Assembly: GCA_029319145.1 (NCBI GenBank)
Contig: CP119753.1
Coordinates: forward strand, 3,720,001-3,784,000
Length of the DNA stretch: 64,000 nucleotides
DNA from: Microbacter sp. GSS18
GTDB taxonomy: Bacteria > Actinomycetota > Actinomycetes > Actinomycetales > Microbacteriaceae
Reading direction: 5' to 3'
Below the pieces are notes generated by a model. The model did not search any database and had not been told where the DNA came from. It was given only the letters and a program-made list of their open reading frames with translations. Of the stretch, positions 30,019 to 31,592 are shown in pieces; within the stretch, counting starts at the first letter, position 1, and each line of letters opens with the position of its first letter. Made by a program: the position numbers and the translations under genes.

Positions 30019-30777
30019 TCAGAAGCGGTCGGGCGACGGGGTGCCGTGGCCGTAGCGGATCTGGACGTCGGCGTGGCGGTCGAAGCGGTAGCCGACGCCG
30101 CGCACGGTGCGCACGATGTCCTCGTAGCGGCCGAGCTTGGCGCGCAGACGGCGCACGTGCACGTCGATGGTGCGCTCGCCGGGGACCTCTTCGTCGGTGG
30201 CGCCCTGCCACAGCGATCCGACCAGCTCGGTGCGCTCGATGGTGCGACCCTCGCGCAGCACCAGGTACTGCAGCAGCTCGAACTCCTTGTAGGTCAGCGC
30301 GGCGGACTCGCTGTCGATCAGGACCCGCTTGCGCGAGATGTCCACGATGACACCGCCGGGGGCGCGATCCTCGTCCTCGGGCTCCTCGTGCTTCGCGCGG
30401 GCGATCGTCGAGGGCTCGTGCAGGGCACGGCGGACGACGTCGACGTCGCGGCCGCCCGCGCCGACGGGGGCGAGGGCGACGGTGGCGTAGGTCTCGGCCT
30501 CGGGTGCGAGGTCGGCGAGCGTGCGGCGCAGCGCGTCGACGAGGACGCCCAGCGAGACGCCGGCGGCGGCGGCCTTGGCCTCGTCGAGGCCCACGTACAG
30601 GGCGAAGCCGCGCGGGGCCGTTCCCGGGGGCAGGGCGTTGGCGGGGCGCGGCGCCTCGGGAGCGGCGGGGACCTCGGCGGCGGGGGCGGCCGGCTGCGGC
30701 ACAGCGCGCAGCGTCGGGGCCGGGGCGGTCACGGCGCGGAGGTGGTTGGGGCGCTCGAGAAGGGCGGTGTTCGACAT
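30019..30777 (-). CDS. Winged-helix regulator without receiver domain
   Basis: 252 residues. Only the C-terminal ~95 residues (from about 155) match a known domain: an OmpR/PhoB-type winged helix with ALTYKEFELLQYLVLREG, the recognition part TIDVHVRRLRAKLG and the wing VRTVRGVGYRFD. There is no receiver domain with a phosphorylatable Asp. The N-terminal part is a Pro/Ala-rich tail (residues ~10-50) and a small unknown domain (FALYVGLDEAKAAAAGVSLG onward). No histidine kinase is adjacent. ATG 30777 begins MSNTALLERP. A long leader with a small peptide ORF and two hairpins precedes it, so expression is probably regulated post-initiation. Confidence 0.82.
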   Translation of the reverse strand: MSNTALLERPNHLRAVTAPAPTLRAVPQPAAPAAEVPAAPEAPRPANALPPGTAPRGFALYVGLDEAKAAAAGVSLGVLVDALRRTLADLAPEAETYATVALAPVGAGGRDVDVVRRALHEPSTIARAKHEEPEDEDRAPGGVIVDISRKRVLIDSESAALTYKEFELLQYLVLREGRTIERTELVGSLWQGATDEEVPGERTIDVHVRRLRAKLGRYEDIVRTVRGVGYRFDRHADVQIRYGHGTPSPDRF

Positions 30778-30800
30778 GATGATGGTCCTAGCGGGAGTGT

Positions 30801-30866
30801 GAACCCTGGCCTCTGGCCCGGAAAGGGTTCGGGAGGTGCTGCTTTCGGGCCCCGGTCTCACGGGGC
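30801..30866 (-). promoter_or_regulatory. Two candidate regulatory hairpins in the winged-helix leader
   Basis: Hairpin A: GAACCCT (30801-30807) pairs with AGGGTTC (30824-30830), with inner GGCC/GGCC around TCT. Hairpin B: GCCCCG (30849-30854) pairs with CGGGGC (30861-30866). They lie between the small peptide ORF (stop 30985) and the regulator ATG (30777); the nearer one ends 24 nt before that ATG. No clear terminator U-tract is seen, so translation control is as likely as attenuation. Confidence 0.45.
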
Positions 30867-30984
30867 GGGCTCGAAGGGAGCGGGCGAGCGTGGTCGACGC
30901 GCGGATCCGGTTCTTCGGGGGACTCGATCAGGTGACGCTTCGGGCTGTCAGCCTCTGCGCACGAGTCCAGCGGGGGTCACCGTG

Positions 30985-31086
30985 CTAGTGGCACATTCGA
31001 CAACACATGACGTCGCGGCCGGCCATCATCATGCCGGCAGTCCCGTTCGCCTCCCAGGCGGACAGAGAATGCGCGAGTTTCGTCAT
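30985..31086 (-). CDS. 33-residue Cys/Met-rich leader peptide
   Basis: A small ORF beginning MTKLAHSL and ending GRDVMCCRMCH, followed by TAG. It contains six Met (three consecutive) and three Cys near its end. The two adjacent Cys codons are TGT TGT and the Lys codon is AAA, rare for this genome, which would make a ribosome slow there. A consensus promoter lies 7 bp before its ATG, so the transcript would be leaderless. It is in the same direction as, and 207 bp before, the winged-helix gene. Position, size and tail composition are those of sulfur-amino-acid-sensing leader peptides (family comparison), but coding evidence is only sequence-based. Confidence 0.6.
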   Translation of the reverse strand: MTKLAHSLSAWEANGTAGMMMAGRDVMCCRMCH

Positions 31087-31093
31087 GCGGCCG

Positions 31094-31123
31094 ATTATGA
31101 CGGACTGCGTCGTTGTGAGTCAA
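31094..31123 (-). promoter_or_regulatory. Consensus promoter for the leader peptide and regulator
   Basis: On the minus strand TTGACT (-35, 31118-31123), an 18-nt spacer and CATAAT (-10, 31094-31099), 7 nt before the leader-peptide ATG. It is the closest match to a full sigma70 consensus that I see in the window. Further upstream, GTCAC repeats twice (TGTCACATTCCGTCAC). Confidence 0.75.
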
Positions 31124-31292
31124 ATCGCTCGATCCGCCCGCCCGGCTCGTGACGGAATGTGACAGATTGCTCAATCGATCGGCATGGGACCCGGTATCGC
31201 GCACGGTGCGTCGGGGTGCCGCAACCTGAGGGGGTTCCCAACGAGTGGGCGCGGCGGCCCGGGGCGCGGCGCGACGGGGTTAGCCTGTGGAC

Positions 31293-31592
31293 ATGACCGA
31301 GTTCACGCTGGTGCACGAGCCCGACGCATCCCGCTATGCGCTGATGCACGGCGACGCGCGCGTGAGCGTCCTGGACTATCGCGACGACGGGCGCTCGCTC
31401 GCCCTGACCCGCGCCTACACGGTGCCGACCTTCCGCGGCCACGGGTACGCCGGCGAGCTGGTGGAGCGTGTCGTCGCCGAGCTCGAGGAGCGCGGCGACC
31501 GCACCGTGATCCCGGTGTGCTGGTACGTCGCGGACTGGTTCGCGGCGAACCCCGCGCACGAGCACCTGCTTCACCACCGCCGGAGCGCATAG
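31293..31592 (+). CDS. Short GNAT-type N-acetyltransferase (NATD1/YjdJ-like)
   Basis: 99 residues. SLALTRAYTVPTFRGHGYAG holds the short-family acetyl-CoA loop (GHGYA), and PVCWYVADWFAANP is the conserved C-terminal block. These are minimal GNAT proteins without known substrates. ATG 31293 is used: TAGCCT (31281-31286) lies 6 nt before it. It is divergent from the leader-peptide transcript with about 200 bp between; I see nothing else in that gap. Confidence 0.8.
   Translation: MTEFTLVHEPDASRYALMHGDARVSVLDYRDDGRSLALTRAYTVPTFRGHGYAGELVERVVAELEERGDRTVIPVCWYVADWFAANPAHEHLLHHRRSA

Follow-up and report, generated by a model that had tools for sequence, protein, structure and literature searches.

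In erm-type translational attenuation, a ribosome that stalls in a leader ORF frees a masked downstream ribosome-binding site (RBS), with a macrolide as the signal. Leaderless poly-cysteine short ORFs of mycobacteria are reportedly treated by Canestrari et al. 2020. In the available text of the published reports, such ORFs sit upstream of cysteine and sulfur metabolism genes (PMC4633059, PMC9094748, PMC13236596) and are reported as cysteine-responsive translational attenuators (PMC13236596). Seliverstov et al. 2005 (PMC1262725) described cys leader peptides in Mycobacterium, Propionibacterium acnes, and Bifidobacterium and, in the sections available, saw none of the methionine operons preceded by conserved RNA structures. 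In Rhodobacterales, the accessible text of PMC8632094 presents uORFC-8-2 as a Cys-codon attenuator of cysS, which encodes Cys-tRNA synthetase.

We analyzed a region in which a short Met- and Cys-rich ORF precedes a gene for a winged-helix protein, here called wH, and we see an even chance that this region is a translational attenuator with a leaderless ORF, through which wH, a one-component regulator, would respond to Met/Cys supply. A literature search, with most subscription journals outside its reach, found nothing on the leader or the wH gene.

Leader, promoter, and target gene in the window

The window is the whole stretch of DNA analyzed, 64,000 nucleotides long, representing positions 3720001-3784000 of a 4.03-Mb genome. 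The features of the locus are listed in Table 1, and an Rfam search of 30700-31300, with E values allowed up to 1, returned 0 matches.

Table 1. Coordinates of the leader and wH features, in window positions
Feature	Position	Strand	Details or basis
-35 hexamer TTGACT of leader promoter	31118..31123	(-)	Read in window sequence
-10 hexamer CATAAT	31094..31099	(-)	18-nt spacer to -35; 7 nt before leader ATG
Leader ORF MTKLAHSLSAWEANGTAGMMMAGRDVMCCRMCH	30985..31086	(-)	33 codons + TAG; 33 aa, six Met, three Cys
In-ORF hairpin GCCGGC-ATGATGATG-GCCGGC, Met codons 19-21 in loop	31018..31038	(-)	Comparison with synonymous variants
ATGATGATG, Met codons 19-21, predicted anti-RBS strand	31024..31032	(-)	Complementarity, accessibility prediction
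Core TGT TGT CGA ATG TGC, Cys28-Cys29-Arg30-Met31-Cys32	30991..31005	(-)	Codon conservation
Leader stop to wH start, 207 nt	30778..30984	(-)	Terminator scan, folding against shuffles
AGGA, Shine-Dalgarno-like sequence of wH	30786..30789	(-)	Window sequence, relatives
CCATCATCATG, spacer and start codon of wH	30775..30785	(-)	Complementary to leader 31023-31033
wH gene, 252-aa protein	30019..30777	(-)	PF00486 at 158-232, OmpR/PhoB-type; start ATG, first base 30777

The leader promoter, TTGACT-18-CATAAT, agrees with the consensus at 10 of 12 bases, and shuffles of the region contained a mean of 0.0 sites as good, which bears out the near-consensus promoter proposed by the sequence-only reading. 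The 33-codon ORF ending in DVMCCRMCH, its six Met, and the 207-nt gap before a winged-helix gene were also present as that reading had described them. Its remark that TGT is a rare Cys codon in this genome holds in part: TGT made up 16 of the 109 Cys codons counted across 37 CDS-like ORFs of the window, a low share without being an extreme one.

Among 154 loci in relatives, the -35 hexamer was TTGACA in 109, with TTGACA or one-off forms dominating, the promoter spacer was 18 nt in 111, the -10 hexamer lay 6-7 nt before the leader start in 151, and the start codon was ATG in 151; because the relatives' leader starts were picked by maximal promoter score, these statistics are inflated and the counts are upper bounds. 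A leaderless start of the ORF is predicted from this promoter spacing. The tetramer GTCA occurred within the promoter spacer in 22 of 154 loci against 7.6 expected, a weak excess. Strong constant transcription with control further downstream is the natural reading of the promoter data. Autoregulation of wH at its own promoter was considered and set aside, as no conserved motif was found 5' of the -35 hexamer among the 154 loci. A second promoter-like site, TTCACA-16-CATCAT (9/12), lies at 30776-30803 on the minus strand and overlaps the wH RBS; this candidate may be a promoter of wH itself, and its CATCAT is accounted for by complementarity to the leader.

Searched against Pfam, wH matched PF00486 (E 9.6e-21) and gave no Response_reg match up to E 1, as expected from the earlier description of a receiverless winged-helix gene. 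The protein resembles OmpR/PhoB-family regulators in its C-terminal DNA-binding domain, its best solved match by sequence being the OmpR-family regulator 8hml, and differs from them in having no receiver domain and an N-terminal region of ~100 residues without a Pfam match. Orthologues were identified in 193 of 199 family genomes, and the nearest named relatives are from Microbacterium, where the protein is listed merely as a winged-helix protein.

No sulfur metabolism gene and no copper gene was found among the neighboring ORFs scanned with Pfam; for sulfur metabolism, the scan took in 20 ORFs, 18 on the flanks of homologous loci and 2 within the window itself. A gene of the PAPS reductase family (PF01507) was identified in only 5 of 13 Microbacterium-genus genomes, compared with 14 of 14 control genomes, so many members of the genus may depend on reduced sulfur, and such dependence would make a Met/Cys sensor useful to them. 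The wH gene is present in genus members with or without the PAPS reductase family gene.

Conservation and selection within and beyond Microbacteriaceae

A search with the leader peptide hit 149 of the 199 family genomes with E no higher than 1. Loci were anchored on wH to avoid selection by the leader, yet 30 of them came from the leader search; the resulting 181 family loci exclude 16 repeats of the same genome, the truncated contig L042, and loci outside the family, and L025 holds no wH. A leader with the strict end [CRS][RS]MC-x(0-3)-stop was identified within 800 nt upstream of wH in 154 of the 181 loci, against 1 of 181 in the antisense control and 0 of 152 in the 800 nt downstream of wH. 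By eye, 21 of the other 27 loci had a leaderless Met/Cys-rich ORF with a variant end, e.g., CCRMSA, CCRMHA, or MCMCMCMCR, L110 kept only the N-terminal half of the leader, and no leader was seen in L167, L169, L175, L180, and L183. Reduced genomes harbor forms such as CACRMCCCC and MCMCMCMCR, with poly-Cys or Met-Cys alternation. In L080, the leader lies ~430 nt upstream of wH and carries the expanded tandem repeat MMMPVLMMPVLMMPVLMMPVLMMPVRAVACCRMCA, an example suggesting that the Met block can multiply while the Cys-Arg-Met-Cys end stays.

The 15-mer TGYTGYCGAATGTGY was present in 117 of 199 family genomes (2 of 199 for the reversed-pattern control), twice in 8 of the 117, with a few matches away from wH, e.g., in G047 and G096. 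In the class sample, 17 of 31 matching genomes fell outside the family; the 16 such places inspected lay in longer frames without a leader, and the element was rejected at these.

Over the 85 of 154 leaders with exactly 34 codons, we obtained an omega-like value of 0.40 from 14166 synonymous and 18975 nonsynonymous single-step codon differences, a synonymous share above expectation, the pairs not being independent. Judged by these differences, the leader peptide is under purifying selection. Thus, far from being unconserved or free of codon-position bias, either of which would have spoken against the sequence-only reading, the ORF recurs upstream of orthologous wH genes in Microbacteriaceae with synonymous changes favored. 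In the same 85 leaders, codon 32 was Cys in all 85 and codon 29 in 83, and the Cys codons are clustered near the stop at conserved positions, as in mycobacterial-type poly-Cys ORFs.

Selection also acts on the RNA, because Arg30 was encoded by CGA in 153 of 154 leaders, whereas CGA accounts for 140 of 3598 Arg codons in wH genes. Met31 was ATG in 154 of 154, the flanking Cys codons used TGT and TGC freely, and CGA was found at 15 of 15 sites in further loci. The codon is invariant even where the RBS has no partner for it; in genomes that otherwise avoid CGA, the CGA-AUG core, explained in part, offers a sharp handle. In the 105 loci with in-frame ATGATGATG, the hairpin around Met19-21 was compared with 60 synonymous variants per locus and surpassed their mean stability at 88 loci (mean of -14.8 kcal/mol versus -12.4 for the variants); its arms include GCCGGC/GCCGGC, GCTGGC/GCCAGC, and GCCGAC/GTCGGC. 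On the codon evidence, both the CGA codon and the Met19-21 hairpin exceed what selection on the peptide explains. At least in part, the Met run serves at the RNA level, as a hairpin loop and anti-RBS strand, so six Met in 33 residues are no clean evidence of Met sensing.

A profile search with wH across the order matched 94 of 297 genomes, 23 of these in the own family, and leaders were found before the homologues in several other families. All 18 loci of family f7 had leaders, e.g., MTSIAVRVEAAIRVASAMMRSMMMMMMQMMQRQPSL, ending in Met runs, with 7-13 Met/Cys in the last 24 residues and terminal residues that are mostly RQPS[LI]. These f7 leaders (L202, L292-L308), with up to 13 Met/Cys, are among the most Met-rich short ORFs we encountered and provide a clean test case for Met-codon attenuation. 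Met/Cys leaders such as MTSATHLMRMPAAAMCMRCVRGR were present in 7 of 9 loci of family f6, and 12 of 21 loci of family f2 had an in-frame Cys-Arg-Met end with CGA as the Arg codon, L281 having an AGG site elsewhere besides its CGA site; no such leader was found at the 3 loci of family f8. A scan of named genomes gave 80 loci, of which 39 were examined; 13 had Cys-Arg-Met with CGA, Brevibacterium had leaders in 5 of 5, and the scan showed none for Rothia, Kocuria, Cellulomonas, Actinotalea, Demequina, Aquiluna, Leucobacter, and others. Identical leader types link f2 to Micrococcaceae, with Pseudarthrobacter, Arthrobacter, Sinomonas, and others, and f6 to Brevibacterium. In family f26, the distant class-level wH homologues of L203 and L204 are closely preceded by short ORFs, VRTTVRFGCLVGDGCRPAACR and VPRLLLTQRRAVDLMRVASQLCR, which are possibly further Cys leaders.

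In four families, the leader end retains sulfur amino acids even as the other residues of the peptide vary. Leaders rich in Cys, leaders with both Met and Cys, and leaders with Met runs interchange before wH homologues in other families, which fits sulfur amino acid sensing, and Met/Cys supply would be the simplest factor common to the leaders. The main rival is a soft-metal or redox sensor, in which the nascent leader peptide, through Met/Cys ligands, would sense a soft metal, e.g., Cu(I), or thiol oxidation on the ribosome, and arrest or release would control wH. The alternation of Met and Cys between families suits soft-metal ligands as well as sulfur codons, and the C-terminal R-M-C hardly varies in its amino acids although Cys wobble is free, a constancy beyond what runs of codons would require. 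We nevertheless consider this sensor unlikely, since it predicts neither the single Arg codon, CGA in all leaders but 1, nor the RNA-level constraint on the Met run, and the scanned neighbors include no copper gene.

Likewise unlikely is that the leader senses ribosome transit, with the slow CGA and the low-structure UGUUGUCGAAUGUG forming a pause site and wH responding to translation stress (antibiotics or scarce inosine-modified arginine tRNA) and not to Met/Cys. TadA makes the inosine needed to read CGA, and the near-invariance of CGA in the family leaders, the 15 sites in further loci, and the Cys-Arg-Met site of the 12 f2 loci would suit such a sensor, as would the gene neighborhood. With upp identified by Pfam and tadA by its motif, the pair flanked wH at 133 of 155 loci of the own family, 8 of 21 in f2, 9 of 9 in f6, 17 of 18 in f7, and 3 of 3 in f8, a neighborhood that supports orthology of the wH locus. 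Against a transit sensor, the f6 and f7 leaders share Met/Cys content and not CGA, and tadA is absent from the window's own wH locus within the 7 kb examined. As a separate observation, upp and tadA are neighbors of wH in most families of the order, e.g., at L128, L201, and L202. A leader with an invariant CGA codon has tadA close by, and the window has lost that neighborhood.

Folding and predicted pairing with the ribosome-binding site

The sequence-only reading had given a role to two hairpins between leader and wH, which our folding left unsupported: the 207-nt stretch was no stabler than shuffles (z -0.05, with 92 of 200 shuffles as stable), nor was the longer 339-nt segment that begins with the leader and runs into wH (z -0.40, 34 of 100). 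A scan of 30650-31300 gave 0 terminator-like sites, against an expectation of 0.3 from shuffles, and with hairpins at shuffle level, classical terminator/antiterminator attenuation was rejected. Of the leader-based attenuation proposed earlier, the leaderless, conserved Met/Cys-rich ORF with its codon-level selection stands, and the hairpin role and classical termination fall; the data point instead to codons of the leader itself as the pairing partner of the wH RBS.

In the window, the ATGATGATG region of the leader is an 11-nt perfect complement of the wH start region, and in this genus, the wH RBS has its complement in the Met-Met-Met codons AUGAUGAUG. The two are lost together: among the 13 genus genomes, CATCATC preceded wH in 7 of 7 with intact Met-Met-Met and 0 of 6 with a broken run. 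More widely, the RBS region of wH contained CATCAT at 51 of the 104 loci whose leader has Met-Met-Met, at 8 of the 30 that have Met-Met, and at 0 of the 19 that have neither, before or after the Shine-Dalgarno sequence depending on the lineage. An alternative TTCGAC, complementary to leader GTCGAA, was found in the RBS region of 20 of 158 loci, 2 of which also had CATCAT. On the wH protein tree, 28 separate pairs, each with a difference in the Met triplet, were compared for CATCAT: its change was concordant in 6, discordant in 0, and tied in 22 (p 0.016). Comparing in reverse gave 7 versus 1 (p 0.035).

Complementary runs of at least 8 between leader and RBS occurred in 61 of 153 loci versus 43.6 expected from mismatched partners (p 0.0002), and the own run was 6.88 versus 6.48 for mismatched pairs (permutation p 0.0002); a control window upstream of the RBS showed a smaller excess (5.90 versus 5.73, permutation p 0.011), so relatedness explains part of these values. 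In f7, 14 of 18 loci had a complementary run of at least 7, against 1 of 18 in the control window, the start codon contributing to the runs. The f6 leader ends CGTCCGCGGCC or CGTTCGCGACC pair in some loci with a segment ~40 nt upstream of the RBS; this pairing is perfect over 11 nt in 3 of 7 loci (L201, L285, L286), one of them having changed bases that still pair, and spans 7 nt in L284.

For the window, the predicted probability that the RBS is unpaired was 0.14 with the free leader, 0.45 with shuffled leaders, and 0.70 with no leader. With a ribosome placed at codons 16-25, it rose to 0.63-0.71, so a halt at the Met triplet would open wH directly; with a ribosome at codons 28-34, it was 0.16-0.17 and the RBS stayed masked, so a halt at Cys would need a second ribosome queued behind. 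The Met triplet and the Cys codons are about ten codons apart, the distance of a queued ribosome. Masking of the RBS as a family-wide rule was not supported by full-length folding, in which the free leader masked the RBS more than shuffled leaders in 61 of 153 loci (p 0.33). Placing a ribosome on the final Cys codon did not open it either (87 of 153, p 0.08). Nor did the end of the leader show general pairing with sequence downstream (mean z -0.06, 12 of 149 below -2), and such pairing was rejected as a family-wide rule. Within the genus, masking was predicted in the 7 genomes with the Met triplet. As the family-wide folding was negative, we limit RBS masking to this genus and the lineages with matching motifs, where we hold it to be likely.

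Plain translational coupling, by which the leader would deliver ribosomes through reinitiation or keep Rho off without conveying a signal, is quite unlikely. It would suit ribosomes that load on a leaderless ORF and a 207-nt gap in which no terminator was found, and Rho involvement has been proposed for actinobacterial cys leaders in the available text of PMC1262725, but the gap, mostly 130-280 nt in relatives, is long for reinitiation, and mere delivery would not hold the peptide end or the Met/Cys content. That the leader encodes a small functional protein, e.g., a metal-binding peptide merely sharing a promoter with wH, is very improbable in spite of the purifying selection on the peptide, which elsewhere is replaced by unrelated Met-run or Cys-run sequences, always before wH, and given the RNA-level constraints of CGA, Met hairpin, and RBS complementarity.

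Proposed mechanism and comparison with known systems

In a leaderless attenuator responding to Met/Cys supply, a strong sigma-70-type promoter would fire constantly, and the transcript would start at or next to the leader AUG, with ribosomes loading directly on the leader ORF. With Met- and Cys-tRNA plentiful, ribosomes would clear the leader, and the Met-Met-Met stretch AUGAUGAUG in the hairpin loop could then pair with the wH RBS and keep wH translation low; in the window, ATGATGATG of the leader would pair with CATCATCAT to repress wH, and in other lineages the Cys-Arg-Met stretch UGUCGAAU would take this part. When Met or Cys is short, a ribosome would halt on the sensor codons, or queue behind them, and cover the anti-RBS strand; wH would be translated and would reprogram sulfur amino acid supply genes. 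We infer charged tRNA as the signal, translation and not Rho-dependent termination as the controlled step, and such genes as the wH regulon.

In its fullest form, our proposal is that the sensor codons are themselves the masking strand: AUGAUGAUG or UGUCGAAU would hide the RBS of a family-wide one-component regulator, a halted or queued ribosome would remove that strand, and the Met/Cys codons would drift while wH stays, the whole being an upstream switch for sulfur amino acids in Microbacteriaceae, Micrococcaceae, Brevibacterium, and a fourth family. This form is tentative, and we hold it to be rather doubtful. If true, a regulator found across Microbacteriaceae would gain a probable input signal and a testable role, amino acid attenuation would control a transcription factor in place of a biosynthetic operon, and the RNA strand repressing the next gene would consist of the very codons that the ribosome reads.

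Compared with the mycobacterial poly-Cys ORFs, as the available text presents them, the leader shares a predicted leaderless start, terminal Cys codons, a conserved position before a gene, and the lack of an intrinsic terminator. Those ORFs precede cysteine and sulfur metabolism genes, whereas the gene that follows the present leader encodes a DNA-binding regulator; because of this target, we keep the leader apart from them and regard it as a candidate variant, not a member, of the leaderless sulfur amino acid attenuators, with a putative Cys response. Beyond what is given in those accounts, it adds the fixed CGA-ATG core, the Met triplet in a hairpin loop, and the complementarity to the RBS, and in one family of the present leaders Met replaces Cys.

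With the cys leaders of 2005, it shares Cys codon runs near the stop, the absence of other attenuator parts, and possible Rho dependence; in the sections available, those leaders lie upstream of cys or cbs operons and Met codons are not reported (PMC1262725). Like uORFC-8-2, it has tandem Cys codons within a leader ORF that is itself part of an RNA structure; according to the accessible text, that system is transcriptional, has an intrinsic terminator, and targets Cys-tRNA synthetase (PMC8632094), whereas the present leader precedes a regulator gene and would act on translation. As in erm-type attenuation, stalling of a ribosome in the leader ORF would free a masked RBS; unlike there, the signal would be amino acid supply, and the sensor codons themselves would form the masking strand.
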